Origin: a virus | DNA length: 28,065 nucleotides | Virus record (IMG/VR): IMGVR_UViG_3300008448_000474 | Location: 1 to 28,065 of that record | Strand: one strand, 5' to 3' | In this document: positions 5,685 through 21,946 of the stretch, in pieces | Position numbering within the stretch: the first letter of the stretch is position 1 | How the letters are laid out: each line of letters starts with the position of its first letter | Translations under genes and position numbers: made by a program | The notes under the pieces: generated by a model | The model's database searches: none | What the model saw: only the letters and a program-made list of their open reading frames with translations | What the model was told of the DNA's origin: nothing

Positions 5685-6582
5685 TTATCTTGCACTTATT
5701 GTTGCTATTGTATTATCTTCTGTTGCGGCCTACTTTTCTATATTAGGGTTAGCAGCTATCTTTGCTGCTTCGTTTTGGCCAATTGTTATTATGGGAGCTT
5801 CGCTCGAAGCTGCTAAAGTAGTAGCTGCATCATGGGCATTTCGCAATTGGAGAATCGCTCCTGTGTGGATCAAGTATTATCTTGCCATTGCAGTTGTAAT
5901 CTTAATGGTTATTACTTCGATGGGTACGTTTGGATACTTGTCAAAGGCTCATATTGAACAAACATCACCAACAGCTGATATTGCAGCTCAGGTTGCTGTC
6001 TATGATGAGAAGATAAAGGGGTTAAATGATACCATCAATTCAAACCGCACGCTTCTTAAACAATTTGATGAGGCAGTGGACAATGTCATGGCACGATCAA
6101 CCGATGCGAGGGGTGCCGAGAGATCTCTTCAAATCCGTAAAGCCCAACAGAAAGATCGTGACAAAATACTACAAGACATTCAGAACCTCCAAAAAGAGGT
6201 TGCTACTCTCAACAAGGAAAGAGCTCCATTGGTGTCACAGGTCAAAAAGGTTGAAGCAGAAGTTGGGCCACTCAAGTATATTGCCGAGTTATTTTTTGAT
6301 CATGCGGATGCAACTCTGTTGGAAAAGACAGTACGATGGGTTATAATAATGATTGTGGCTGTATTTGATCCTCTTGCTGTACTGTTGCTAATTGCTGCTA
6401 ACCTAGGTATAGTACGCCAAGATCGTACTAAGAAGGCTAAACTTACTCGACTCGAGAACATGGCAGAAGAACAAAAAGATCTTGCTGCTGAGCGTAGACT
6501 TAAGAAACTAATTGATCTTGTTGGTAAGGATGGCAAGAAGAAGATTACAATTGACAAGAACCAGATAAGGAAAATGAAATGA
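5677..6582 (+). CDS. four-helix membrane protein with long coiled coil
   Basis: The 301-residue product has three hydrophobic segments near the N terminus (about residues 5-25, 27-48 and 65-87). A long charged coiled coil follows (about 100-200), then a fourth membrane segment (about 220-243) and a basic Lys-rich tail. I recognise no enzyme motif. It sits between gp43 and uvsX with overlaps on both sides (8 bases before, ATGA after). This order is seen in marine T4-like phages. The topology suggests a coiled coil exposed on one face of the inner membrane and a basic cytoplasmic tail, perhaps linking replication to the membrane. Function is unknown. Confidence 0.8.
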   Translation: MINYLALIVAIVLSSVAAYFSILGLAAIFAASFWPIVIMGASLEAAKVVAASWAFRNWRIAPVWIKYYLAIAVVILMVITSMGTFGYLSKAHIEQTSPTADIAAQVAVYDEKIKGLNDTINSNRTLLKQFDEAVDNVMARSTDARGAERSLQIRKAQQKDRDKILQDIQNLQKEVATLNKERAPLVSQVKKVEAEVGPLKYIAELFFDHADATLLEKTVRWVIIMIVAVFDPLAVLLLIAANLGIVRQDRTKKAKLTRLENMAEEQKDLAAERRLKKLIDLVGKDGKKKITIDKNQIRKMK

Positions 6583-7589
6583 GCTTTTTGAAAAATCTTA
6601 TTAAGGAAATGGATGATGAGGATACTTACTTGGCCAGTGACGGCGGTGGCAGTGCTGAGTTTTCTGGTTGTATTGATACTGGCAGCTATGTTCTCAACGC
6701 TCTTCTCTCTGGTAGCCTCTATGGCGGCGTACCTGATAACAAGATTACTGCTTTTGCAGGAGAGTCCGCTACTGGTAAAACTTTCTTCGTACTTGGTATC
6801 GTTAGAGCCTTCCTTGACAAGAACCCAACAGGAGCAGTCGTCTACTATGACACCGAGGCAGCCGTCACAAAGGCAATGATGGAGTCTAGAGGTATTGATA
6901 CATCAAGAGTAATCATAGCAGAACCAGATACAATTCAGAAATTCAAAACACATGCACTAAAGATGCTTGATGCTTACGAGAAGCAACAAGACCGTCCACC
7001 AATGATGTTTGTACTAGACAGTCTTGGTCTTCTATCCACAAACAAAGAGATGGAAGATTCATTAGATGGTAAAGATGTTCGTGACATGACCAAAGCTCAA
7101 GTTATCAAAGCAGCGTTTCGTGTCCTTACTTTGAAGTTGGCAAAGGTCAAAGTACCAATGCTTGTTACTAACCATGTTTATGAGGTGGTGGGATCTTATG
7201 TACCTACGAAAGAGCTTGGAGGAGGAACTGGACTCAAGTACGCAGCTAGCACTATTGCTATGCTCTCCAAAAAGAAAGAAAAGGATGCTGATGGAGATGT
7301 CATCGGAAGCCAAATCAAAATTAAGACATACAAATCAAGGCTCTCAAAAGAAAACCAAGAAGCAACGGTGCTACTTACTTTCGACAAGGGCTTAGACAGA
7401 CACTTCGGTCTTCTTGATCTTGCAGAAGAAGCAGAGTTATTCAAAAAGGTTGGTAATAGATATGAACTACCCGATGGTCGCAAAGTTTATGGTAAGGAAA
7501 TAATTAACAACCCAGATAAATTTTTTGATGATACCTACATGCAACAGTTAGAACTTTTTGCCAAAAGGAAATTCAGTTATGGAAGTTGA
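6579..7589 (+). CDS. uvsX: UvsX, RecA-like recombinase
   Basis: A 336-residue strand-exchange ATPase of the T4 UvsX type, which assembles on single-stranded DNA for recombination-dependent replication and repair. Walker A is GESATGKT (61-68). DTEAA (91-95) carries the catalytic Glu after the second strand, and Walker B is MFVLDSLG (143-150). GGGTGLKYAASTI corresponds to the loop 2/core region. The start overlaps the previous stop as ATGA. The next gene starts inside its last codons. Confidence 0.96.
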   Translation: MSFLKNLIKEMDDEDTYLASDGGGSAEFSGCIDTGSYVLNALLSGSLYGGVPDNKITAFAGESATGKTFFVLGIVRAFLDKNPTGAVVYYDTEAAVTKAMMESRGIDTSRVIIAEPDTIQKFKTHALKMLDAYEKQQDRPPMMFVLDSLGLLSTNKEMEDSLDGKDVRDMTKAQVIKAAFRVLTLKLAKVKVPMLVTNHVYEVVGSYVPTKELGGGTGLKYAASTIAMLSKKKEKDADGDVIGSQIKIKTYKSRLSKENQEATVLLTFDKGLDRHFGLLDLAEEAELFKKVGNRYELPDGRKVYGKEIINNPDKFFDDTYMQQLELFAKRKFSYGS

Positions 7590-10825: not shown

Positions 10826-10833
10826 TATAAATA
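10826..10833 (+). promoter_or_regulatory. T4-type late promoter TATAAATA
   Basis: Perfect late box three bases after the previous stop codon, with no -35 like sequence. It lies 33 bases before the first gene of the packaged-protein block. Confidence 0.75.
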
Positions 10834-10865: not shown

Positions 10866-11213
10866 ATGTCAATTAAGAAATATTCAGAATATATTACTCT
10901 GCATGAACAAAAGTCTAAAACAATTGGATTAAGATCTATTGTTGAAGCTAAAGACGAGGTATATGGTCCTGATTACGATGCTGGAAGAGTGAGTAAGAAG
11001 TTCGATGCCGCTTTAGAGCATATCAAATCTCAAAAATACAAAGTGAATCATGATGGTGGTGGAGACGAGGATACCGTGGATCACGAGAAACCAGACGTAA
11101 CACTTCACTATGCATATGGAGACGATGAACCTAGTTCATACACACTTCATCACGATGGAGCAGCTGCTAAGGATAAGGTTTTAAAAATTAAACATCTCAA
11201 AGCTAAAGACTAA
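10866..11213 (+). CDS. hypothetical protein with capsid-targeting-like N terminus
   Basis: A 115-residue product starting MSIKKYSEYITLHEQ. The [L/I]-x-E tripeptide LHE at residues 12-14 resembles the T4 internal-protein targeting sequence cut by gp21. The rest is hydrophilic and rich in Asp, His and Lys (GGGDEDTVDHEKPD, YTLHHDG), with no recognised fold. AAGGAGA gives an excellent ribosome site. It is the only gene between a late promoter and a perfect UUCG-loop terminator, so it forms a monocistronic late unit. Packaging in the head is inference. Confidence 0.7.
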   Translation: MSIKKYSEYITLHEQKSKTIGLRSIVEAKDEVYGPDYDAGRVSKKFDAALEHIKSQKYKVNHDGGGDEDTVDHEKPDVTLHYAYGDDEPSSYTLHHDGAAAKDKVLKIKHLKAKD

Positions 11214-11230
11214 TACAAATCACTCCAAAC

Positions 11231-11254
11231 AAACCCACTTCGGTGGGTTTTTTT
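11231..11254 (+). terminator. rho-independent terminator with UUCG loop
   Basis: AAACCCAC pairs with GTGGGTTT around a TTCG tetraloop, and the T run continues to 11254. A textbook intrinsic terminator closing the preceding single-gene late unit. Confidence 0.93.
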
Positions 11255-11258
11255 ATGA

Positions 11259-11266
11259 TATAAATA
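11259..11266 (+). promoter_or_regulatory. T4-type late promoter TATAAATA
   Basis: Perfect late box immediately after the terminator and 24 bases ahead of ATG 11291. It resets transcription for the long block from 11.3 kb on. Confidence 0.78.
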
Positions 11267-11290
11267 CAGGATAACACTCCGGAGTATGTA

Positions 11291-12295
11291 ATGAAATTAT
11301 TTTCAAATTTTTTGATAGAACAGGTAGCGATCAAGGCTTCCGGTATGAGTGCTGCTCGTCACACGAGCCAATACATCACCCCATACCTACCTGGTGGTAG
11401 CAAGCATTCAGAAGGTAGTCATGAAATGGCTAGCAACCACGGTGACTTGGCAGCTGGCCAAAAAGTAACTATTCATGGACATGAAGTAAAGCAAGATTCT
11501 AAAGGTAGAGATGTTCACCATGCAATTGTTCAAGCTGTTGGTTCAAAACAAAAACATTCAATACCTACAAACAAGTTATTCAAACCGGCAGCGTCAGCTC
11601 GAAAGAACAAAGGCTTAGAGCAAGAAAGTCAGTTATCTGAACATCTTAACAAACATGGTTTGATGAAGGGTAAAGGTGCTGGTTTCACTGGTGATAATGA
11701 CTTCCATTTAATTGATAAACGCGGTGCTAGAGAGAAAAAGATTGGTGGTACTGAAGGTGCTAAGGATGCGATACAAGGTGAGCATAAGTCTGATATTAAA
11801 TCTACTGCTTTTGGCCAAATTACTCTTTCAAGACATCCAAAAACTGGAAACTGGCACATTGACGAAAAGGCTCGTGCGAAGAGACCTGAGTTTGCAGAGC
11901 ATGTTGAAAGAGCAACGGTTACACACGGTGGTGTAAAAAAAAGATTGTTGGATCATTTGAATAAAAAAGAACCTCCTGGAACATCTAACAAAAGCGGATT
12001 CAATTCAGACACTACTGACGCTCGGCCTGCTCATGCTTATATGCGTGATCACGGTGTTGATGTTGCTCATATTGATACACATGGTACATATAGGGCTGGT
12101 GCAGGTGAGTACAAAGACACTCACAAACTAGGACTTCCTGTATTGTTTGGACAGGGTCGTTTTCGTGTTAGACAAAAAACAGACAATCCAAACAAGCGTA
12201 CTGTTCAGTTCTCTCTCACCAAGCTCGATAAATCACACACCAATATTGGTACCGATGAAGGTGCAGAGAAAATGAAGAAAGTGCTAGGACACTAA
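11291..12295 (+). CDS. putative PD-(D/E)XK-type nuclease with capsid-targeting-like N terminus
   Basis: A 334-residue basic, His-rich protein. The start MKLFSNFLIEQ has LIE at 8-10, the position of the gp21 cleavage motif in T4 internal proteins. Residues 53-98 look like a small beta barrel. The core shows E117 in a helix (QLSEHLNKHG), D137 in GDNDFHLID, then GEHK (E164-x-K166) and FGQITL (174-179). This order of acid, acid and E-x-K fits a PD-(D/E)XK nuclease fold, but that is my inference from pattern. I recall related proteins annotated hypothetical in T4-like cyanophages. CGGAG precedes the ATG, and the gene follows a terminator and a late promoter. Confidence 0.6.
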   Translation: MKLFSNFLIEQVAIKASGMSAARHTSQYITPYLPGGSKHSEGSHEMASNHGDLAAGQKVTIHGHEVKQDSKGRDVHHAIVQAVGSKQKHSIPTNKLFKPAASARKNKGLEQESQLSEHLNKHGLMKGKGAGFTGDNDFHLIDKRGAREKKIGGTEGAKDAIQGEHKSDIKSTAFGQITLSRHPKTGNWHIDEKARAKRPEFAEHVERATVTHGGVKKRLLDHLNKKEPPGTSNKSGFNSDTTDARPAHAYMRDHGVDVAHIDTHGTYRAGAGEYKDTHKLGLPVLFGQGRFRVRQKTDNPNKRTVQFSLTKLDKSHTNIGTDEGAEKMKKVLGH

Positions 12296-12297
12296 TA

Positions 12298-13464
12298 ATG
12301 CGTCATATATTCCTATTACTAAAAGAAGCAGTTGCCAGTGAAGAAAAGCTAACACACCTCGAGCACGCAGAAGATCATCCTATCAATGCTGGTGTAGAAG
12401 GATTCAAACATTCTGTTAACACACTCAATGCTGTTCACAAGACATTGACTGGTCAAAAGGGCGGTGCATCACTTATGACCAAGTATGATGGAAGTCCAAG
12501 TATTGTATTTGGTCATCATCCTCAAACAGGTAAGTTCTTTGTAGCATCTAAGTCTGCCTTCAACAAGAACCCCAAGATTAACTATACCGATGAAGACATT
12601 GATGAGAACCACGGACATGCTCCTGGTTTAGTTTCTAAGTTAAAGACTGCATTAGCTCATCTTCCAAAAGTTACTCCTCAGAAGGGAGTGTTTCAAGGTG
12701 ATGTTATGCATACACCAGAGGATGTTGAAGAGAGGGGTGGTAAGGTTCACTTTAAACCAAACTTAATTAAGTATTCCACACCATCAAAGTCAGCTGAAGG
12801 TAAGAGTATTAAGAATTCAAAGATTGGTGTATATGTTCATACTGGATATGAAGGTAAGGATGTTGGTTCCATGAAAGCCAACTACACTCCAGACCTTTCT
12901 GGTTTTGCTAGTCACGATAGTGTTCATCTGATGAAGTATGGATACGATACAAAGAATTCAAACTATGATCAAGACAGTCAGAAGCAATTCAGCAGACACA
13001 TGGAAGATGCCATGGATGTTGGTAAAGGATTGAAGAAACAACACTATGCTGTATTAGAACCTCACACCGATCATGTCAAGACTTACATTAATAAGACAGT
13101 GAGAGAAGATACTAAGCCATCAGCTGAAGGGTTATACAGTCATATTCAAGCTGCCCATGAAAAAGCAATTGCTGGTGTGAAAACAGAAAAGGCAAAGTCT
13201 CAGAAAACAGCACAGATGAATACTGATCTTGCGCATATCAGATCCAATCACGAGACAATTAATAACATATTTCAGATGCATCACCATCTCCAAAAAGCTA
13301 AAGATGTTTTAGTCAATGCTATGTCACATGGCCAAGACTTTGAGCATCATATTGGAGACACCAAGACAAAGCCTGAAGGATTTGTTGCTGTGGTAAATAA
13401 TAGACCAACAAAATTAGTTGACAGAAACGAGTTTAGTAAACAAAACTTCTTAGCAAGACAATAG
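12298..13464 (+). CDS. KxDG ligase/nucleotidyltransferase-like protein (DUF6267-like)
   Basis: A 388-residue protein with N terminus MRHIFLLLKEA (LKE at 8-10), again targeting-like. The core carries KYDGSPSIVFG with K62-x-D-G65, the nucleotide-binding lysine motif I of ATP-dependent DNA and RNA ligases. Further ligase-like segments are FQGDVM (132-137), KPNLIKYSTP (153-162) and SKIGVYVHTGY (174-184). It resembles proteins of T4-like cyanophages that I recall as DUF6267. A covalent nucleotidyl transfer activity is a reasonable guess, but the acceptor is unknown. The C-terminal 200 residues are helical and His/Lys-rich. It follows the nuclease-like gene by two bases, so the two are likely made together. 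Confidence 0.65.
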   Translation: MRHIFLLLKEAVASEEKLTHLEHAEDHPINAGVEGFKHSVNTLNAVHKTLTGQKGGASLMTKYDGSPSIVFGHHPQTGKFFVASKSAFNKNPKINYTDEDIDENHGHAPGLVSKLKTALAHLPKVTPQKGVFQGDVMHTPEDVEERGGKVHFKPNLIKYSTPSKSAEGKSIKNSKIGVYVHTGYEGKDVGSMKANYTPDLSGFASHDSVHLMKYGYDTKNSNYDQDSQKQFSRHMEDAMDVGKGLKKQHYAVLEPHTDHVKTYINKTVREDTKPSAEGLYSHIQAAHEKAIAGVKTEKAKSQKTAQMNTDLAHIRSNHETINNIFQMHHHLQKAKDVLVNAMSHGQDFEHHIGDTKTKPEGFVAVVNNRPTKLVDRNEFSKQNFLARQ

Positions 13465-13473
13465 CGAGGATTT

Positions 13474-14052
13474 ATGAATGAGAATGTGGTGTATAACATT
13501 GGTGCAGGTGGTATAAGTGTCAGAGATCAAAGTGATTTGTTCAATGATGGGTGGAAAGAATACACTGTAGATGTTGCTGAGTGTAATCCAGATATTGTCT
13601 CAGATATAGTTGGATTGCCAGGAATAGAGGATGAGTCAGTTGATTGTGTCTGGGCATCTCATGTTGTTGAGCATGTTTACTGGCATGAGTTACCTGATGT
13701 ATTCAATGCTATTGTTAGAGTATTGAAGCCAAATGGATTTGCATTTGTTATGGTTCCAAACTTAGCTGCAATAGCAGATGCAATTAAGTTTAACTTGATA
13801 CGACCAATGTATGAATCACCAGCTGGACCTGTTGCTGCTATTGATATGATTTATGGTCATAGAGCACAGATTACAAGCAACAAACATATGCAACACAAGA
13901 CTGGGTTCACTCCTCAGTCAATGGCTACAATACTTAATGATCTTAAGATTGAAGCCGTCTGCTCAGAAAACAATTTTGAAATTATAACTATAATATATAA
14001 AGAAACCTTTCCAGAGTTCATAAATGATCCGGAGTTTAAAGTAAGAAAATGA
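13474..14052 (+). CDS. class I SAM-dependent methyltransferase
   Basis: A 192-residue methyltransferase. Motif I is YNIGAGG (7-13), an acidic residue ends strand 2 (VDVAE, about 32-36), and motif IV is VWASHVVEHVYWHE. VLKPNGFAFVMVPNL is the usual post-motif strand. The pattern matches type-11/type-23 methyltransferases acting on small molecules or sugars, so the substrate is open. It has no targeting-like N terminus, unlike its neighbours. GAGGA precedes ATG 13474, and the end overlaps the next gene as ATGA. Confidence 0.85.
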   Translation: MNENVVYNIGAGGISVRDQSDLFNDGWKEYTVDVAECNPDIVSDIVGLPGIEDESVDCVWASHVVEHVYWHELPDVFNAIVRVLKPNGFAFVMVPNLAAIADAIKFNLIRPMYESPAGPVAAIDMIYGHRAQITSNKHMQHKTGFTPQSMATILNDLKIEAVCSENNFEIITIIYKETFPEFINDPEFKVRK

Positions 14053-14654
14053 AAAAATTCAAAGACTTTTTAACAGAAGCCAAAGATAGAACCGAGGTTC
14101 TATTGTTTGGAAGAATGAATCCAATCACAAGTGGCCACGAAGAAAACGTTGTCAATGCTCATAAAATTGCTATGAAGCATAAAGGATCTCTTCGTATTGT
14201 TGGAAGCCACAGCCACGATCCAGAAAAGAACCCCCTGTCTCCTGAACAAAAACAGAGACATATGCAACGTGCCTTTGGTCATCTGAGTAACACTATGGTG
14301 ACAACAAGTTCCAAAGAGCAACCAACAATCATGCATCACGCTGCAGCTGCGCATGCTTCTGGTGCTTCTCATTTAGTGATTGCTGGTGGTAGTGATAGAG
14401 CAGAAGAATATAAAACCCTTTTAAATAAGTATAACGGTGTTAAAAGTAAGCATGGTTATTATAATTTTAAGAGTATTTCTGTAGAGAATACTGGTGCAAG
14501 GAAAGCTGGAATCAGTGGTACAGATATGAGAAAACATGCTGCAAGTGGAAATTATAATCAGTTCAAATCTAATCTTCCTTCTAAGCTAAAAAGTAATCCC
14601 ACTCATGCTAAGGAAATTTATAATGATGTAAGAAAAGGAATGAACAGTGAGTAA
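14049..14654 (+). CDS. nucleotidylyltransferase with capsid-targeting-like N terminus
   Basis: A 201-residue protein starting MKKFKDFLTEA, with LTE at residues 8-10 in exact register with T4 internal protein III. The catalytic domain begins right after it: LLFGRMNPITSGHEENV holds the [H/T]xGH nucleotide-binding motif (T27-S-G-H30), and ISGTDMR (155-161) corresponds to the ISSTxxR motif. This places it in the cytidylyltransferase-like superfamily (NMN adenylyltransferase, PPAT, CTP:glycerol-3-phosphate types). The exact substrate cannot be decided. If gp21 cuts after E10, the mature enzyme is intact, which suggests a packaged, active enzyme. It overlaps both neighbours. Confidence 0.82.
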   Translation: MKKFKDFLTEAKDRTEVLLFGRMNPITSGHEENVVNAHKIAMKHKGSLRIVGSHSHDPEKNPLSPEQKQRHMQRAFGHLSNTMVTTSSKEQPTIMHHAAAAHASGASHLVIAGGSDRAEEYKTLLNKYNGVKSKHGYYNFKSISVENTGARKAGISGTDMRKHAASGNYNQFKSNLPSKLKSNPTHAKEIYNDVRKGMNSE

Positions 14655-15285
14655 TGTTGTTGACGTGAGCTTCAAAACAATTCCAATAGAAGTTGATGGT
14701 ATAAGTGATTGGCCTTGGCCTTCTAAAGACACTGAACTTTGGTATGGTAATACCTATGATTGGGATCAACTAAAAGGTGGCATAAAGACGTATTGTAAAA
14801 AGTTTGATGTTGCAATCCAAGCAGGGGGTGCATGTGGAATGTATCCTAGACTACTTGCTAATTTCTTTGGCCATGTGTATACTTTTGAGCCTGAACCAGT
14901 TAATTTTCACTGCTTAGTTAATAACTGTAGATTACATACGATCACAAAGATCAACGGTGCTCTAGGTGATACTAACATGTTCGTGTCTGTTGATCATGGA
15001 GGTTTTGAAAATGCTGGAGTCCATAGAGTATCCAGACACGAAAAGAATTGTATACCAGTTTTTACAATTGATCAGTTTAACTATGAAGAAGTCGACCTTA
15101 TCCAATTGGATTGCGAAGGATATGAAGAGAATGTAGTTAGAGGTGCTGAAAAGACTATAGAAAAATTCAAACCAGTTATTACATTAGAAACAGTCACGCC
15201 ACACACAAGATCATATCTAGAAAATTTGGGTTATAAGGATATGGGTAGATATGGACATTGTGATACATTGTTTGCAGTTGAATAA
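14647..15285 (+). CDS. FkbM-family methyltransferase
   Basis: A 212-residue SAM methyltransferase. VAIQAGGACGMYPRLLANFF is motif I, VYTFEPEPVNF is the FEP motif characteristic of FkbM enzymes, and VDLIQLDCEGYEENVVRGA is the classic LDxEGxE block. FkbM enzymes O-methylate sugars or small molecules. In marine phages they are often suspected in host-surface or virion glycan modification, but the substrate is unknown. The start is GTG 14647 with AAAAGGAA at ideal distance and an 8-base overlap with the preceding gene; no in-frame ATG fits. No targeting sequence is present. Confidence 0.9.
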   Translation: MSNVVDVSFKTIPIEVDGISDWPWPSKDTELWYGNTYDWDQLKGGIKTYCKKFDVAIQAGGACGMYPRLLANFFGHVYTFEPEPVNFHCLVNNCRLHTITKINGALGDTNMFVSVDHGGFENAGVHRVSRHEKNCIPVFTIDQFNYEEVDLIQLDCEGYEENVVRGAEKTIEKFKPVITLETVTPHTRSYLENLGYKDMGRYGHCDTLFAVE

Positions 15286-15287
15286 AA

Positions 15288-15295
15288 TATAAATA
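15288..15295 (+). promoter_or_regulatory. T4-type late promoter TATAAATA
   Basis: Perfect late box three bases after the FkbM stop codon, 40 bases before ATG 15336. Probably drives the long run of overlapping genes from 15.3 to 22.2 kb. Confidence 0.76.
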
Positions 15296-15335
15296 ACACT
15301 AGTTGCAGTAAGGCTTAGGTAAACCTGCGGAAAAT

Positions 15336-16916
15336 ATGGAAAAGAAAAAATCTAAAAAACAGGCACAGAGTGCTGCCCTCATTACTGGTAATCCAAATGA
15401 CAAAATCGTCATTGAACCACCAGAACAACAGAAAGTTGTCCAAACAGAAGCCGTCAAAAAGGCTATCTCATATCTTAAATCAAAGACCCAAAAGGGTGAG
15501 TTTGAGTACATTGCTCCTTCAGAAAAGAAAGAAGTTGAGCAAAGTGCTATCGAACCTCAAGCCAAAAAATTCAGAGACATTGCATTCCGTAAAGTAGTTG
15601 TAGAGGCTGGCACTGTTGCCAAGATCGCTACATCTCCTATTAGAGCAACAGGTATGGTTGCGAAGGGTGCAATCGGTACAGGTAAATTCATCAATCAAAT
15701 AGCCACGCCTGCTGGTATTTCCGCAGCCGCTGTAGCTACAGCTAATGCAATGGCAAATGTTGCTACTTCTTCAACCTCTAATGTCAAAACTCCAGACATA
15801 AAAGATATTAGCAAAGAGCGTGTAGCTCAGATGAAAATTGGCACAGAAAAAGCCAAAGAAGATCTAAAACAGAAGCAGCTGCAGACAAAGTTAATGACTT
15901 CATCTATCAAAGCTAAGCCAGCTGCTAACACTGCTCCTATGAAGATGAAAGAGTGGAAAATTCATTCCTATCTTTCTAACAGAGCTATTGAGTCAGGTAT
16001 TCCAGAAGAGATTATCTTTGAGGTGTTCAATCGTGGCATAGTATCGTGGACAGATGAAGCCAAGCAAACTGCTGAGCAAGTAGCTGTGCAACGTGTTAAC
16101 TCCTTCATTGCTAAGGGTAAAACCTACAATGAGGATGACAGTGATTTAGCAGAAGAGCGTCCAGGACTATGGGCTAATATTCACGCCAAGCGTAAGCGTA
16201 TCGAAGCAGGGTCTGGTGAAAGAATGAGAAAGCCAGGATCAAAAGGTGCTCCTACAAAACAGAACTTTGTAGATGCTGCAGAAGAGACTGTTAAAAAAAC
16301 ACCACATGAGAAATTCAAAGCTGGTTTAAAGAAAGCTGGTTATGATCCTGATGCAGGTGCAAAGAGACTGTTAGATCTTATTGCAAAGCAAAAGAAAGAA
16401 CGTGAAGAGCGTGAATCTAAAGCACGTGATGCAGGCATATCTGAAGAGGGCGATTATCCTCATGTTGGAGTTGGTTCAAGTAAAAACATGCAAATGGCAA
16501 GAGATATTGCAAGAATGAAGGCAACATCTTCTATGATGAAATCAATTCACGGTGATAGTTTTCAGGATAAACCTATGCCTGATTATGAAGAAGATAAACT
16601 AGATCTAAAACCTGATGATAAGGGCAATTACGTTGCTACTGTACGTATGCGTCAAAAAAATCCTGTTGTTAAGGAAGAAAATATCGACGAAAGTTTTGTA
16701 ATTGATCGAGCTGCTGGTTACAGTACAACATACACTGCAGGTGATCTAGGAATCAAAATTCAAGGTGGATTCGCACTGCACCCTTCAGTAACTGAAGAAG
16801 GTGGAGCTGGTGATGAAGGTACAGATAAATTAGTTAAGAAATATATGAAAGATACTCCACTAGAATCTTTCAGTAGAATGATCAGAGCCAGAAGAAAGGC
16901 TAACACTCAATGCTAA
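15336..16916 (+). CDS. large low-complexity virion-associated protein (hypothetical)
   Basis: A 526-residue Lys/Ala/Glu-rich protein. It has a basic start (MEKKKSKK), an Ala-rich weakly hydrophobic stretch (about 90-145) and a conserved module around residues 275-305 with GLWANIHAKRKRIEAGSGER and RKPGSKGAPT. I recognise that module from several proteins of T4-like marine phages. Near the C terminus ENIDESF contains an I-D-E tripeptide (16683-16691), a possible gp21 cut before a conserved segment. Unlike its neighbours it lacks a targeting-like N terminus. GCGGAAAA is only a weak ribosome site. Function is unknown; it is probably a head-associated or scaffold-like component. Confidence 0.65.
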   Translation: MEKKKSKKQAQSAALITGNPNDKIVIEPPEQQKVVQTEAVKKAISYLKSKTQKGEFEYIAPSEKKEVEQSAIEPQAKKFRDIAFRKVVVEAGTVAKIATSPIRATGMVAKGAIGTGKFINQIATPAGISAAAVATANAMANVATSSTSNVKTPDIKDISKERVAQMKIGTEKAKEDLKQKQLQTKLMTSSIKAKPAANTAPMKMKEWKIHSYLSNRAIESGIPEEIIFEVFNRGIVSWTDEAKQTAEQVAVQRVNSFIAKGKTYNEDDSDLAEERPGLWANIHAKRKRIEAGSGERMRKPGSKGAPTKQNFVDAAEETVKKTPHEKFKAGLKKAGYDPDAGAKRLLDLIAKQKKEREERESKARDAGISEEGDYPHVGVGSSKNMQMARDIARMKATSSMMKSIHGDSFQDKPMPDYEEDKLDLKPDDKGNYVATVRMRQKNPVVKEENIDESFVIDRAAGYSTTYTAGDLGIKIQGGFALHPSVTEEGGAGDEGTDKLVKKYMKDTPLESFSRMIRARRKANTQC

Positions 16917-17422
16917 AATTTAAAGATCACATTACGGAAAAAAGAAATCTTACTGTCAAGGCATATAGAAACAAGTCTGGATCGTTTGCTAATCTATACT
17001 CTATAGATCAAGATACGATGAGAAAGTTGAAGTCTCCTAAGTCCGCTAGTATGTTTTACAGACAAACTCAAGCGTCGAGATTTGGTAGACGTACTAACCT
17101 TTTCAGAATGAGAAAAGAAGACAAGCAATTGATTCTAAACAAATTAATTGAGCTGCAAGAGATTTGGGATAGTACTTTGTCCGAGGCAGAATATCAAGGA
17201 CGAGATGTTCCTCTCAACAAACCAATGGCTGGTGACGTAAAAAAGTCTAAAGTATTTGTTAAGAACGAACAAGGTAATGTAGTCAAAGTAAATTTTGGTG
17301 ACAAGAATATGACTATCAAAAAGAATATTCCTGCGCGCCGTAGAAGTTTTAGAGCAAGACATAATTGCGATACTCCAGGACCAAAGACAAAAGCAAGATA
17401 TTGGAGTTGCAAAGCATGGTAA
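16910..17422 (+). CDS. conserved T4-like phage protein, RARHNCD...KARYWSCKAW C terminus
   Basis: A 170-residue, very basic protein. The N terminus MLKFKDHITEK has ITE at residues 8-10, targeting-like. The C-terminal third contains RDVPLNKPMAGDVKKSK, KVNFGDKNMTIKK, RRRSFRARHNCD and TKARYWSCKAW. I recall this block as highly conserved in T4-like cyanophages and pelagiphages, with unknown function. Two Cys (HNCD, WSCK) and many Arg/Lys suggest nucleic-acid contact, as expected for a DNA-packed internal protein; this is inference. It overlaps the preceding gene by 7 bases and the next by 7. Confidence 0.78.
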   Translation: MLKFKDHITEKRNLTVKAYRNKSGSFANLYSIDQDTMRKLKSPKSASMFYRQTQASRFGRRTNLFRMRKEDKQLILNKLIELQEIWDSTLSEAEYQGRDVPLNKPMAGDVKKSKVFVKNEQGNVVKVNFGDKNMTIKKNIPARRRSFRARHNCDTPGPKTKARYWSCKAW

Positions 17423-17844
17423 AGAGATATATTAGTTTTTTATCTGAAGCTAAAAATACTTGTCCAAGGGCTACTTACGATATTCATGTTAATCTAGAAA
17501 ATCGTCAGCATGCAATTGACGAGTATGGTTACGGTCCAATGAATCCTTCTGATCCATCTGAGAGTTTCTGGGATAAAAAAGCTAAGCTGTGGGGTATTGC
17601 TGTCGAAGAAGTTAAGTCTGCAAGATGCGGTAATTGTGCTGCTTTTGTCATCACTGAAGATATGAAGAAGTGTATTATTGATGGAAGAAAAGATAAAGAA
17701 GATGATAATGAAAAAGATCACTTTGATATTTCAGTAGAAAAAGCTAATCTAGGGTATTGTAATATTTTTCATTTCAAGTGCGCAGGAGACAGAACCTGCG
17801 ATGCTTGGTTAACTGGTGGTCCTGTTGATGATAAGGATTTATAA
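17416..17844 (+). CDS. HiPIP-like cysteine protein with capsid-targeting-like N terminus
   Basis: A 142-residue protein starting MVKRYISFLSEA, LSE at 9-11. The C-terminal part has ARCGNCAAF (C71, C74), GYC (C115) and RTCDAW (C128). Two further Cys (86, 122) lie between. The order C-x2-C ... G-x-C ... C-x2-W resembles high-potential iron-sulfur proteins, although the gap between the second and third Cys is much longer than usual (40 residues against about 14). It could instead bind zinc. ATG 17416 is preferred over the longer TTG frame because it places the targeting-like sequence at the N terminus and overlaps the previous stop by only 7 bases. It shares a base with the Dps-like gene that follows. 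Confidence 0.68.
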   Translation: MVKRYISFLSEAKNTCPRATYDIHVNLENRQHAIDEYGYGPMNPSDPSESFWDKKAKLWGIAVEEVKSARCGNCAAFVITEDMKKCIIDGRKDKEDDNEKDHFDISVEKANLGYCNIFHFKCAGDRTCDAWLTGGPVDDKDL

Positions 17845-18287
17845 TGGAACAGTTGATTGAACAGATGAAGGTTGTACTAGCTGATACGTTTGCTATGTAT
17901 TTGAAAGCTCATAACTTTCATTGGAATGTAGAGGGACCTAGTTTCCCACAGTACCATGATTTTCTTGGTGATCTTTATGAAGAGTTGCATGGTGCAGTAG
18001 ATCCAATTGCAGAGCATATTAGAGCTTTGGATGCATATGCTCCTGGATCATTAACAAGATTCAGAGAGTTATCTACAATAAAGGATAGCATGACTCCCCC
18101 GCCTCCAATGCAAATGATGATGGAGTTGTTAGGAGACAATGAAACAGTGATGGCGTCATTAATGACAGCATTCAAGTTATCTGAGAATACTCCAGAGATT
18201 GGCTTAGCTAATTTCATACAAGATAGATACGATATTCACAAGAAGCATGCATGGATGTTACGTTCAATTATTAAGAACAAGCAATGA
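17844..18287 (+). CDS. Dps/ferritin-like protein
   Basis: A 147-residue four-helix protein of the Dps type. The ferroxidase region is clear: AHNFHWNVEGPSFPQYHDFL with H26 and H38, then VDPIAEHIRALD with D53 and E57. In the E. coli Dps numbering these match H51, H63, D78 and E82. The fifth ligand position (D67) falls on Gly42, with Asp43 next to it. The Lys-rich N-terminal DNA-binding tail of E. coli Dps is absent, as the protein begins directly in helix A. Likely roles are iron or peroxide handling. It overlaps the HiPIP-like gene before it (TAATG) and the next gene (ATGA). No targeting-like N terminus. Confidence 0.85.
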   Translation: MEQLIEQMKVVLADTFAMYLKAHNFHWNVEGPSFPQYHDFLGDLYEELHGAVDPIAEHIRALDAYAPGSLTRFRELSTIKDSMTPPPPMQMMMELLGDNETVMASLMTAFKLSENTPEIGLANFIQDRYDIHKKHAWMLRSIIKNKQ

Positions 18288-18889
18288 AAAAATATAGATC
18301 GATCACAAATAGAGTAAGAGATGTACTCGTGAAAAACAGAGTACAAGAAATGAAGATGCCTCCTGGAGAGAAGTATGGCAGGGATAGTATCGAGAAAGAT
18401 CAGAGTGATCAAATCGTTGCTGGTACTTACAAAACAAAACATTTCGAAATGTGCCCAAGAGCTCAGAAGCTATTTGTGTCTCTAGAAAAGATTCATCATA
18501 ATCCCGACATAGCTGAGAAGTCTGCTATTCTTCATGATAAGTTATTTTGGTTAGAGAAGCAAGTTATTTCCCATCAGAGAAGTACTGCTGATGATACTAA
18601 GGAAGCGGAAGACTTAGTGAAAAGAATTGAGAAGTTGGCTCCTGACATGGGAGTAGAAGGTAAGACTGGTTACTTGAAAGATCATATTGCTAAGATTAAA
18701 TCGTTTGAGCAAGAAGATAAAAATGTATTTGATGATCCAATAGATAAGAATGAAATCACAAAGAGATTCACATCTCCTCCTTCTTATATGACAAAAGAGC
18801 CTGAGGACAGAGATATAGATAACACCAAGTTCTTTATCTCGAGAAGTATTAAAGGTCAGAGAAAACTAAAAATTATAGACGCGGACTAA
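18284..18889 (+). CDS. hypothetical charged protein of the packaged-protein block
   Basis: A 201-residue helical protein rich in Lys, Asp and Glu. It opens MKKYRSITNRVRD, similar in composition to neighbouring targeting sequences but without [L/I]-x-E in the first 15 residues. A helical segment around 65-130 (FVSLEKIHHNPDIAEKS onward) is followed by an acidic tail. I do not recognise it. It starts four bases inside the Dps-like gene and ends one base before the next ATG, so it belongs to the same late operon. Function is unknown. Confidence 0.65.
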   Translation: MKKYRSITNRVRDVLVKNRVQEMKMPPGEKYGRDSIEKDQSDQIVAGTYKTKHFEMCPRAQKLFVSLEKIHHNPDIAEKSAILHDKLFWLEKQVISHQRSTADDTKEAEDLVKRIEKLAPDMGVEGKTGYLKDHIAKIKSFEQEDKNVFDDPIDKNEITKRFTSPPSYMTKEPEDRDIDNTKFFISRSIKGQRKLKIIDAD

Positions 18890-18890
18890 G

Positions 18891-21095
18891 ATGAAAAATA
18901 TCTACGAAACTATTAAAGGAATTATGGCTGATTCTTTGAATGAGAGAGCTCCTCCTCCAATTAATTATAAAGCTAAATCTACAACTACTACTAGAGCAGT
19001 AACTACCGCTGCTCCATCTAGTACTCCTACTAGCAGTGCTGTGACTACTACTTCTCAGACTAACGCTCCTTCTACAAGAACCTCTAGTACAGCGGTCACT
19101 ACAAAACCAGCTACCCCTGTTTCTGCTCCAGAACCAGCAGCACAACCTCAGAAAAGTAATTTCAAATTTCGAGGTAGAAACTTAGGTATATCAGATGTCA
19201 AACCAACATCATCAGTGGGAGCTGCTGCAAGAAACATAGCAAGTAAAGCTATTAGTGCAGTTGGAACAGTAGCAAGGATTGCTAGAGGAGGTAGTGTACT
19301 CGCTGCATTAGAACCTTCTGAATTAGCTAGTGGAGAACTGCCAGATGAAAAAAGAGCAGAGCTAGAAAAAGGTGGTATTCCCAAAGGCCCAGATGGTAAG
19401 CCACTGACTAAGCCTTCACCATATACTGAGCCAAAACCAGAACCGCAGACACAGCCAAAACCTAAGCCTGAAGCTAAGCCTCAACCTCAACCAGCTAAAG
19501 TTCGTACAAAACCAACAACTATTGTAGATCCAAAGCCAAGAACCCAGTCGACTCCAAGTGGAAACAAACCACCTGTAAGTGGAGGTGAGCCTCCAGTAGA
19601 AAAACAAGCATCACCTGCTGGTGAAGGTCCCAATAGAAGAAATGTCCCTCCTTTTGTTCCAATCGATCAAAATAAAAAAGATGATACCAAACCACAGGCG
19701 GCGGTTCCTAATTCAGACAATATTAAACCTCAGCAAGCAGCTAAACCTCCTGCTTCGAATGAACCAAATGCTGTTGATAAAAAGCCTGAAGATGATTGGG
19801 TACCTTCTAGAAGAGCTTCGGATAGACCAGCACCACCTCCTCCTCCATCAGCAGAAGCTCCTAAAGCTGAACCAAAAACTGCAAAACCAGATTGGTTTGT
19901 TCGTACTCCAGGATCTCCAACAAAGAGTGGTGAAGCTGGCTATTTGACTACAAAGGATAAAAAGGGAGAAGTTTATCCAGGAACAGATATTCCTAGATCA
20001 GCTGTTATGTCAGGTTCAGGTGCTGCTGAAAGAGCAGCGCAACTCAGAGGCCACTCTGTTGACAAATATGAGGTTGGAATGACAGGACCTAGATACCAGC
20101 ATAAAGGTAAGTGGTACAGTGCAGATCCAACTGATGCTGAAATGGAACAAAAAAAGAAATCTCAAACTACCAAAGAGGAAACACAGATGTCAATTAACAA
20201 GCGCTATGGTGTATCAGACGAACTTTATTCTTCAGTGATGGAAGTATTGGCTAAGCACAAAGGTACTCCACCAAGACACGAAAAAGAAAGAAAACTTGCT
20301 GCTATGCACGGTGATCCAAATACGATTACTCACGGTGATGTTCTCAAAGCACGTGGTGTCAAGATGAAAGAAGAGACTAAGCAAGTCGATGAAATGTCGT
20401 CTAAAATGAAAATGAAACTAGGTCTTTATGGTAAGAAAAAGAAGACCAATGAAGAAGCAGAGTCAATTCAAGAAAAGAATACTGATACTCCAGGCAACAG
20501 CTATGAGCACCAGTGTGCTATTCATGTGAAGAACGAAGAGTGGGGTGTTGGCCGTACAATTACAACCCAACACGCTGATCCAGATGAGAACGGCAACATT
20601 GCATGGTATGATGTTATGTTTGAGCATGGTATTGAGAAGTATGTTCCAACGGACGAGTTAGAGATCCTTGTTTCTGAGTCGCACATGCACTCAATGAAGA
20701 AAAAGAAAAAAGTAACTGAAGCAACTGGTGAAGAAAGAGATTCCGCTGCTCGAAGAGAAAATGATAGGTATGATAATGCTAGGAATTATCAAGGTAGAAA
20801 CGCTCGCGGTGATGTAATTAGACAGGGTGATTATGGTGATGCGATTGTAAAATCTAATCCAAATCCTCCTTCAATGATGGACAGAATTAAGGGCAAGCTT
20901 GGTCTTCCAAACAATGCCAGAGATGCTCTAGGAGATCCACTGTACAAGAGTTCAAGGCCAAATGCTGGTGGTGGAAGTGGAGGCGAGTCTGGATCTTCTC
21001 GTGACATGGATCTGGGTGCAGATTTAGATCCTAAAAGAATGATGCAAAAAAACAAAAAAGTAACTGAAGCTGTTCATACGAGGGAAGAGAGATGA
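18891..21095 (+). CDS. large mosaic low-complexity protein with conserved C-terminal domain
   Basis: A 734-residue protein. The N terminus MKNIYETIKGIMADSLNERA has LNE at 16-18, targeting-like. A Ser/Thr/Pro-rich stretch follows (about 25-75), then an Ala-rich segment (100-145) and a long Pro/Lys-rich region (160-330). A module around 355-410 includes GYLTTKDKKGEVYPGT. A conserved domain lies at about 535-605, with EWGVGRTITTQHADP and WYDVMFEHGIEKYVP, which I recall from other marine T4-like phages. An S-I-Q-E site (20466-20474) sits just before it, and KKVTEA occurs twice. It is probably a head-packed or head-lining protein processed by the prohead protease. Function is unknown. Confidence 0.68.
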   Translation: MKNIYETIKGIMADSLNERAPPPINYKAKSTTTTRAVTTAAPSSTPTSSAVTTTSQTNAPSTRTSSTAVTTKPATPVSAPEPAAQPQKSNFKFRGRNLGISDVKPTSSVGAAARNIASKAISAVGTVARIARGGSVLAALEPSELASGELPDEKRAELEKGGIPKGPDGKPLTKPSPYTEPKPEPQTQPKPKPEAKPQPQPAKVRTKPTTIVDPKPRTQSTPSGNKPPVSGGEPPVEKQASPAGEGPNRRNVPPFVPIDQNKKDDTKPQAAVPNSDNIKPQQAAKPPASNEPNAVDKKPEDDWVPSRRASDRPAPPPPPSAEAPKAEPKTAKPDWFVRTPGSPTKSGEAGYLTTKDKKGEVYPGTDIPRSAVMSGSGAAERAAQLRGHSVDKYEVGMTGPRYQHKGKWYSADPTDAEMEQKKKSQTTKEETQMSINKRYGVSDELYSSVMEVLAKHKGTPPRHEKERKLAAMHGDPNTITHGDVLKARGVKMKEETKQVDEMSSKMKMKLGLYGKKKKTNEEAESIQEKNTDTPGNSYEHQCAIHVKNEEWGVGRTITTQHADPDENGNIAWYDVMFEHGIEKYVPTDELEILVSESHMHSMKKKKKVTEATGEERDSAARRENDRYDNARNYQGRNARGDVIRQGDYGDAIVKSNPNPPSMMDRIKGKLGLPNNARDALGDPLYKSSRPNAGGGSGGESGSSRDMDLGADLDPKRMMQKNKKVTEAVHTREER
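20706..20722 (+). repeat. 17-base direct repeat, copy 1 (encodes KKVTEA)
   Basis: AAAAAAGTAACTGAAGC occurs here and again at 21054-21070 in the same frame. The second copy lies 348 bases on, an exact number of codons, consistent with duplication of a module boundary. Confidence 0.6.
21054..21070 (+). repeat. 17-base direct repeat, copy 2 (encodes KKVTEA)
   Basis: Second identical copy of AAAAAAGTAACTGAAGC, close to the 3' end of the 734-residue gene. Confidence 0.6.
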
Positions 21096-21946
21096 AGACT
21101 CTTAAGCAAATTATAGAAGGAATAGTAGTTTCTGCTGACTTCAAAATGAGTAAGTCTGGTAGAAAGTATAAAGCTCATAGAAGAGAGATGGGTCAACCTA
21201 CAGCCATGGATATTGCCAGAGGTATGAGAAAAGGTCCCATGACTGATGCGATGGAAGGCACCATGAGAGATGGTAAGTATGTTGATGATGCCCCGCGTCC
21301 TGGTACCAATGAGGTGCCAGTACCTGATGAAGGATACAGACCTCCTAAGAGCAAAAAGAAACCACCTGTCAAGTCTATTGACAATGGTGAAGAAGATATG
21401 AGAGAAGATGTGGAACAGGTTGATGAGCTGAGTTATGGTACATTACGTAGCTATACTGACAAAGCCAAAGCTGAGAATCTTCCTGGAAAAGGCGGTAACA
21501 GAGGCGTTGCTTTGTTAACTCCTGGTACCAGAGACAAGGGTGTTCATAAAGCCGTCGACAGAATGAAGAAGATGAAATCCAATGAAGAAGTTGAGATAGA
21601 CGAAGCACGTGGACGTCCAGCTAGCGCTGCAACTCTTGCAAAGCGTGCCGCAGCTGCCAAACCACGTGACGACGATGACGATAGCGATCACTACGATGCA
21701 GATAGTGGTGTAGAAGCAGATCAACACATTCATGTTCAGTTGAAGAAAGCTGTTGATTCAACTATGAAACCATATGAAGTGTCATTTAAGAATGGAAAGA
21801 AGCATACTGTTTCATCCCATGTAGCTAAAAACCTACTTGATGCAACAGAAAGATTGAAGCCTGAGCACAGAAAAAACGTACATGATGAGATTCATAAATC
21901 TTATGATAGCTTGCTAGCTGTCCATAAAATGATAGTAGGAAAGTAA
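21092..21946 (+). CDS. hypothetical packaged-type protein with QVDEL module
   Basis: A 284-residue hydrophilic protein starting MKTLKQIIEGIV, with IIE at 7-9, targeting-like. It contains SKSGRKYKAHR near the start, a DVEQVDELSYGTLRSYTDKA module typical of head-associated proteins in marine T4-like phages, and then EVEIDEARGRP, whose I-D-E (21596-21604) is another gp21-type tripeptide. A short acidic run (DDDDDSD) precedes a C-terminal helical domain (about 210-284, HIHVQLKKAVDS onward). It overlaps the previous gene as ATGA. A function beyond probable head association cannot be assigned. Confidence 0.68.
   Translation: MKTLKQIIEGIVVSADFKMSKSGRKYKAHRREMGQPTAMDIARGMRKGPMTDAMEGTMRDGKYVDDAPRPGTNEVPVPDEGYRPPKSKKKPPVKSIDNGEEDMREDVEQVDELSYGTLRSYTDKAKAENLPGKGGNRGVALLTPGTRDKGVHKAVDRMKKMKSNEEVEIDEARGRPASAATLAKRAAAAKPRDDDDDSDHYDADSGVEADQHIHVQLKKAVDSTMKPYEVSFKNGKKHTVSSHVAKNLLDATERLKPEHRKNVHDEIHKSYDSLLAVHKMIVGK

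Follow-up and report, generated by a model that had tools for sequence, protein, structure and literature searches.

A block of genes with T4-type capsid-targeting tags probably encodes a mixed, enzyme-rich virion cargo in an uncultured aquatic phage

The bacteriophage T4 proteins IPI, IPII, IPIII and Alt share a 10-residue N-terminal tag, the capsid targeting sequence (CTS), placed ahead of diverse protein bodies (PMC9026906, PMC3012670). Genetic analysis of the IPIII tag assigned targeting to residues 4 and 7 and processing to residues 8 and 10, and a review proposes the CTS as a general protein-loading route of T4-like phages (PMC9026906). Here we describe a run of genes with similar tags at positions 10866-21946 of a 28 kb fragment (28,065 nucleotides, the whole stretch analysed, hereafter the window) of the IMG/VR virus record IMGVR_UViG_3300008448_000474, which comes from an uncultured, aquatic virus. 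This locus is very likely the cargo block of a T4-like phage, a form of the T4 internal-protein system whose cargo consists mainly of enzymes. Viruses of this kind probably package an assortment of proteins along with their DNA.

The window encodes PolB, UvsX, a gp41-type helicase, Hsp20 and a PhoH-like protein, which identifies a T4-like phage; we place it among phages of the Kyanoviridae type. Head genes are absent from the window, which is a genome fragment. The block lies behind the gp41-type helicase gene and adjoins replication genes. A search of the window DNA against annotated phages gave no near match, and related loci were therefore sought through their proteins. The closest large relative, G001, encodes a DUF6267 protein 84% identical to that of the window. 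As a background, 1,557 genes were called in seven T4-like genomes (G001, the IMG/VR record G003, Methylophilales phage Melnitz, T4, HTVC008M, Syn9 and P-SSM4), leaving out the syntenic loci.

The first-pass annotation had reported eight proteins whose N-termini end in [L/I]-x-E, with the Glu as residue 10 in four of them, among twelve genes of the interval. All eight N-termini were found (10866, 11291, 12298, 14049, 16910, 17416, 18891 and 21092) and read like the propeptide of T4-type internal proteins (about 10-19 residues, with [L/I]-x-E at its end); the Glu is residue 10 in exactly four genes (11291, 12298, 14049 and 16910). The interval holds 13 genes rather than twelve; our gene caller counts 14 locus genes, including one at 21946. 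In its loose form ([LI]xE with the Glu at residues 8-18), the motif is significantly enriched in the locus (8/14, p=1.4e-4) but common elsewhere, about two matches being expected by chance. Since it occurs in 203 of the 1557 background genes (13%), the loose motif alone was dropped as evidence. A strict tag was defined as M.{1,3}[FYWIL]..[FYWHIL][LI].E, that is, a hydrophobic residue at position 4, an aromatic or hydrophobic residue at 7, Leu or Ile at 8 and Glu at 10. Five of the 14 locus genes carry it (11291, 12298, 14049, 16910 and 17416), compared with 12 of the 1557 background genes (0.77%; p=1.5e-7), so that the enrichment survives the background survey which the first-pass annotation had called for. 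Shuffling the residues of the locus N-termini gave a mean of 0.04 strict matches, against the five observed. Relatives are enriched as well, with the strict tag in 13 of 66 genes of their syntenic loci (p=9e-13). The tags of 10866, 18891 and 21092 are individually weak, yet are kept in relatives as variants (MSIEKYSQFISLHE, MKKIYESAKEILSE and MKTLKQIQEG).

The DUF6267 family, to which the product of 12298 belongs, was used to compare these tags with that of T4. N-termini were collected from IMG/VR loci through the protein body, independently of the tag. Among 38 unique N-termini, entropy was low at positions 4 (F/I), 7 (F/L/Y), 8 (L) and 10 (E in 32/38), while positions 2, 3, 5, 6 and 9 varied, at about 3 bits. 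The constrained positions are those of targeting and cleavage in T4 IPIII, as a T4-type tag would show. A tag was present in 71 of 79 DUF6267 homologues, in very diverse letters (MTAFKNFLTE, MRHIFTLLRE, MLSFSTYLVE, MIKFQFYLKE). A gp21-type prohead protease (PF03420) is encoded by G001, and gp21 is also present in G003, Melnitz, S-SCSM1 and S-CREM2. At the site where T4 gp23 is cut (FLTE), the gp23 of G001 (TLTE) and of Melnitz (FLSE) retains the LxE form. Applied to T4, the strict pattern retrieved IPII, IPIII, gp24, 61.1 and a few others; it thus serves to pick out gp21 substrates, at the cost of some false positives. T4 61.1 (54 amino acids (aa); positions 18966-19130 of locus L105) begins with MKTFKEFIKED, a good match, and is possibly an unrecognised T4 internal protein.

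The tagged products, all encoded on the plus strand, include several candidate enzymes. The 201 aa product of 14049..14654 (tag MKKFKDFLTE, 14049-14078, E10) is cytidylyltransferase/NMNAT-like: it matches phrog_3041 (E=1.7e-43) and holds the nucleotidylyltransferase motif (H/T)xGH (GRMNPITSGHE), its score against PF01467 being below the cut-off (17.1 vs 21 bits). The tag immediately precedes the catalytic FGRMNPITSGHE. In G003, at 16439, and in loci L049 and L065, a 1057 aa untagged cytidylyltransferase polyprotein (MKPVAITFGRMNPPT...) was observed, whose last domain stands alone, with a tag, in G001. Some relatives encode, between DUF6267 and the cytidylyltransferase, a HAD-type phosphatase (MKRFSQFIAEA-VQKKALHVFDIDDTL; Pfam HAD matches weak).

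The 388 aa product of 12298..13464 (tag MRHIFLLLKE, 12298-12327, E10) matches DUF6267 over its full length (PF19782, phrog_455; E=7.7e-98). This family has no function in Pfam and no mention in the literature searched. Its motifs are KxDG (62-65), EGxV (360-363) and K372; over 32 sequences, K62, D64, G65, E360, G361, V363 and K372 are invariant and correspond to motif I, motif IV and the motif V Lys. KxDG, EGxV and a late Lys together mark the covalent nucleotidyltransferase (nucleic-acid ligase) superfamily, and the domain behind the tag was considered ligase-like. In the AlphaFold model, of predicted local distance difference test (pLDDT) 89, residues 1-18 alone fall below 50. The best Foldseek matches of this model were ligases (7sxe, 6p0a, 1xdn, 1b04, 4xrp), none being significant (E 0.2 or worse).

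The 334 aa product of 11291..12295 (tag MKLFSNFLIE, 11291-11320, E10) carries a domain with a PD-(D/E)XK signature. Within its family, E112, E164 and K166 are invariant over 24 sequences and D137 over 11. In the AlphaFold 2 (AF2) model, E112, D137 and E164-x-K166 lie on an a-b-b-b-a-b core with an element order that fits PD-(D/E)XK, and pLDDT is below 50 only at residues 1-10 and in one loop. A Foldseek search with this model did not confirm the nuclease fold, the sole match being a chromo-barrel, probably for the N-terminal domain. We regard the protein as a putative PD-(D/E)XK-like nuclease on the strength of its motifs and element order. A PHROG match to a minor tail protein was too weak (E=0.055) and was set aside. 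Neither the DUF6267 profile nor that of 11291 matched any PDB sequence. According to the models, the folded bodies of 12298 and 11291 start just behind the tag. Also in strict form are the tags of the 170 aa product of 16910..17422 (MLKFKDHITE, 16910-16939, E10) and the 142 aa product of 17416..17844 (MVKRYISFLSE, 17416-17448, E11).

Three published virion proteomes, produced independently of the tag idea, allowed the fate of orthologues to be followed. The cytidylyltransferase T4-GC190 was detected in purified S-SM1 virions (Sullivan et al. 2010, PMC3037559). It begins with MKKFSAFLNEA and is encoded at the syntenic position, with gp41 and gp61 on either side; the DUF6267 protein of S-SM1 is untagged. 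In S-SCSM1, the NMNAT is a virion protein (PMC9602691) and begins with MKSFLQFLKEA, no other gene of that genome having a strict tag. In the syntenic S-SCSM1 block (ORF89-97), seven of the nine products bear a virion-protein annotation, as does a single product (RegA) elsewhere once the head and tail blocks are set aside. Virion mass spectrometry (MS) of S-CREM2 (PMC10665884, Table 3) detected the SAM hydrolase gp6, gp13, the kinase gp14 and the cytidylyltransferase gp154. All four are tagged (MKDFDSFLEE, MKDLHSFLTE, VKRFDAFLTE and MKNFSSFLTE, respectively); the untagged DUF6267 protein (gp87) and the replication proteins were not detected by this analysis. Over S-CREM2 and S-SCSM1, 5/7 strict-tag products were detected (p=0.004; p=0.03 for S-CREM2 alone). 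The claim of the first-pass annotation that the tagged products are packed in the head is thus supported by conserved tag positions, by enrichment over background and by published virion MS of orthologues in three cultured relatives. Another S-CREM2 virion protein, gp12, annotated as Cas9 (locus L342, 7704-10313, minus strand), contains LRFASFMAEA at residues 17-26 and LRFASFMAEAAV at 17-28, a tag-like stretch; either the N-terminus is extended or the start was wrongly placed.

The breadth of the tag was assessed by scanning IMG/VR with DNA patterns for MKxFxxF[LI]xEA and MKTFxxFIxEA. Each pattern gave >120 matches. Control patterns in which Phe and Leu/Ile codons were exchanged gave 33 and 1, respectively, in the whole collection. 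Among the matches listed, 233 of 237 stood at the start of an open reading frame, and 190 complete tagged proteins fell into 49 families with no detectable mutual similarity behind the tag. Few bodies could be named with Pfam: cytidylyltransferase, DUF6267, DUF6321, a lytic transglycosylase-type barrel, a GNAT acetyltransferase and, weakly, an M78 peptidase. Others resemble, on inspection by eye, HNH proteins, HAD phosphatases, ADP-ribosyltransferase-like proteins and a P-loop kinase. Four of the 12 larger tag-bearing contigs checked encode gp23; the other eight may be fragments. On balance, we lean slightly towards the view that in T4-like viruses of aquatic bacteria the tag marks a general cargo system, in which dozens of unrelated families would be packed and delivered as a first strike against host defence and metabolism, so that the tag alone would find phage effectors in metagenomes. 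The families concerned would be nucleotidyltransferases, ligase-like and nuclease-like proteins, SAM hydrolase, kinases, acetyltransferases, HNH proteins and cell-wall enzymes.

Some side observations were made in this survey. Locus L167 (3736-4529) encodes an adjacent tagged pair: a GNAT-type acetyltransferase and a protein that looks ADP-ribosyltransferase-like by eye but matches nothing in Pfam. In Melnitz (82-1131), a tagged RimK-like ATP-grasp enzyme (MTQKFSQFITEE) is encoded ahead of the DNA polymerase, outside the block. Melnitz (MZ577098) has the locus as well, and its products at 82, 12203, 13281, 14914 and 21306 are predicted virion proteins. The swapped-codon control (loci L269-L301) caught real gene starts (MKSFKDMFSEAKV, MKTFSELFSEAKG), which may represent an alternative tag in which residue 8 is Phe.

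Altogether, these data suggest the following scheme. The cargo would be synthesised late, from the T4-type late promoter -10 element TATAAATA. Exact copies lie on the plus strand at 10826..10833, 11259..11266 and 15288..15295, about 25-45 bases upstream of the start codons of 10866, 11291 and 15336; the window holds five on the plus strand and none on the minus strand (1.8 expected). The proposal that the set is driven by late promoters is partly supported by these elements. Each tag would dock its protein on the prohead scaffolding core through positions 4 and 7. A gp21-type prohead protease would then cleave on the C-terminal side of [L/I]-x-Glu (positions 8 and 10), and the mature protein would remain in the head, co-packed with the DNA. 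The cargo would finally enter the next host with the genome and act ahead of phage gene expression. The first half of this scheme draws on sequence and orthologue proteomics, and the second half on T4 biology by analogy. To our knowledge, ejection into the host with the DNA is known for the T4 internal proteins and Alt only. Were ligase-like, nuclease-like and NMNAT-like enzymes to arrive first, they could help to repair nucleic acids or evade defence, and to control NAD.

Several points weigh against this interpretation. Of the eight tags, three (10866, 18891 and 21092) are weak, and five of the 13 block genes have no clear tag (those of two methyltransferases and a Dps-like protein, 15336 and 18284). 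Several cyanophages carry an untagged DUF6267, and the cytidylyltransferase of G003 is untagged. Virion presence is read across from orthologues in S-SM1, S-SCSM1 and S-CREM2, the phage of the window being uncultured. In S-CREM2, two of six strict-tag products (gp37 and gp175) were not detected, and in the S-SCSM1 block a number of virion proteins have N-termini of only the loose [LM]xE type. With so few tagged genes, the association between tag and detection reaches only moderate significance. An earlier S-PM2 proteome is reported to have missed GC190 although the phage encodes it (PMC3037559), and CsCl-purified particles can hold contaminants, as the S-SCSM1 authors caution (PMC9602691). Finally, the UvsX of the window (6579-7589) starts with MSFLKNLIKE, which fits the tag pattern, and a recombinase is unexpected in the head. 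The UvsX of G001 shares this start, and that of HTVC008M begins with MANFLKQIIKE. We rejected UvsX as cargo and consider it a likely false positive of the pattern.

The same tags might serve proteins that are packed and processed for head assembly only (core filling, size control or DNA condensation), as for T4 IPIII, with enzyme domains idle in the new host. The disordered Lys-rich proteins of the block do resemble core or DNA-condensing proteins, and IPIII influences head shape (PMC9026906). However, the tagged enzymes retain their catalytic motifs (KxDG and EGxV invariant in DUF6267, TxGH in the cytidylyltransferase), and the roughly 49 unrelated bodies behind the tag among the matches listed do not suggest a single structural role, which makes this explanation unlikely. 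We give somewhat less credence still to the idea that the proteins work late in the infected cell and merely co-purify with virions, their N-terminal helix being used, for example, to oligomerise or to bind the replication machinery. It would fit the location of the locus next to replication genes and the similar N-terminus of UvsX, itself a replication protein. It does not explain why the conserved positions match exactly those of IPIII targeting and cleavage, nor why cytidylyltransferases recur in virions of independent phages while the replication proteins and untagged DUF6267 of S-CREM2 went undetected. That chance or composition produced the pattern, through Lys-rich amphipathic N-termini, is scarcely credible: the 13% background of the loose motif would favour it, but it is contradicted for the five strict tags by the shuffled N-termini (0.04 vs 5) and by the swapped-codon control (1 vs >120), and chance may still account for the tags of 18891 and 21092.

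The block as a whole bears out the mixture of enzymes and disordered proteins noticed at first sight, with a cytidylyltransferase, DUF6267, a nuclease-like protein and disordered Lys-rich proteins. Its remaining genes are also on the plus strand. The first of these encodes a 115 aa protein (10866..11213) with the tag variant MSIKKYSEYITLHE (E14; codons 10866-10907); its N-terminus is the best conserved part among relatives, and Pfam and PHROG searches gave no match. A methyltransferase (13474..14052), an FkbM-type methyltransferase (14647..15285) and a ferritin/Dps-like protein (17844..18287) are untagged; such homologues as could be identified for them lack a tag too. The 526 aa product of 15336..16916 is a multi-domain Lys-rich protein with no N-terminal tag. 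It contains a GLWANIHAKRKR domain at 16158-16298 with LAE just before it; elsewhere, this type of domain stands directly behind a tag (MKTFKNFILEA-GPGLWANIRAKK). Similarly, the strictly tagged product of 16910 contains an internal LSE|AEYQGRD (17177-17185) where the N-terminal tag of its relatives sits (MLSFLEYIAE|AEYQGRD). This protein, which illustrates how cargo is put together, has a new, tagged N-terminal part and retains LSE|AEYQGRD internally, an arrangement that would make sense if gp21 cleaved between the domains. The 201 aa product of 18284..18889 has no clear tag (relatives: MKKYVTLENRIRDIVRKSRKGLFE). Last come a 734 aa disordered Lys/Pro-rich protein (18891..21095; weak tag variant MKNIYETIKGIMADSLNE, 18891-18944, E18) and a 284 aa disordered protein (21092..21946; weak tag variant MKTLKQIIE, 21092-21118, E9). 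Within these disordered proteins (18891-21946), the acidic motifs KQVDEMSS, EQVDELSYGTLRSYTDKA and EVEIDEARG are repeated, each with a possible [LIV]xE site, and similar EEVELDE stretches occur in block proteins of Melnitz and S-SCSM1.

The tag would explain a recurring oddity of cyanophage virion proteomes, namely the presence of NMNAT/cytidylyltransferase, SAM hydrolase and kinase in the particles, and link it to the best-studied phage protein-packing signal. A ten-residue pattern would become a searchable marker for injected phage proteins in a very abundant virus group, and the hypothesis is directly testable in cultured phages. Injected phage proteins include anti-defence factors such as T4 IPI.

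Among described systems, the virion-associated NMNAT/cytidylyltransferase of cyanophages (T4-GC190; S-SM1, S-SCSM1, S-CREM2, S-CBWM1) is an orthologous enzyme, and its gene neighbourhood in S-SM1 and S-SCSM1 resembles that of the window. In the parts of those papers available to us, the packing route is not explained; the tag offers a mechanism and predicts more cargo. The SPN3US-type ejection proteins (PMC5694885) are likewise many proteins packed with the DNA, with propeptides cut by a prohead protease; they belong to a jumbo phage group, and the likeness drawn here is one of description. Within DUF6267, the member in the window stands out as tagged and ligase-like. The closest parallel is with T4 IPI-III and Alt, which share with the window the 10-residue N-terminal tag and its functional positions, the diversity of bodies and gp21 in related genomes. 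The window differs in that its bodies are unrelated to those of T4, are mostly enzymes and are encoded in one block behind a gp41-type helicase in aquatic Kyanoviridae-type phages. The mechanism is already known from the T4 CTS. What appears to be new is its use on enzyme families such as these, and how many families there are, since 'capsid targeting sequence' and 'cyanophage' occur together in the searched literature only in the review PMC9026906.

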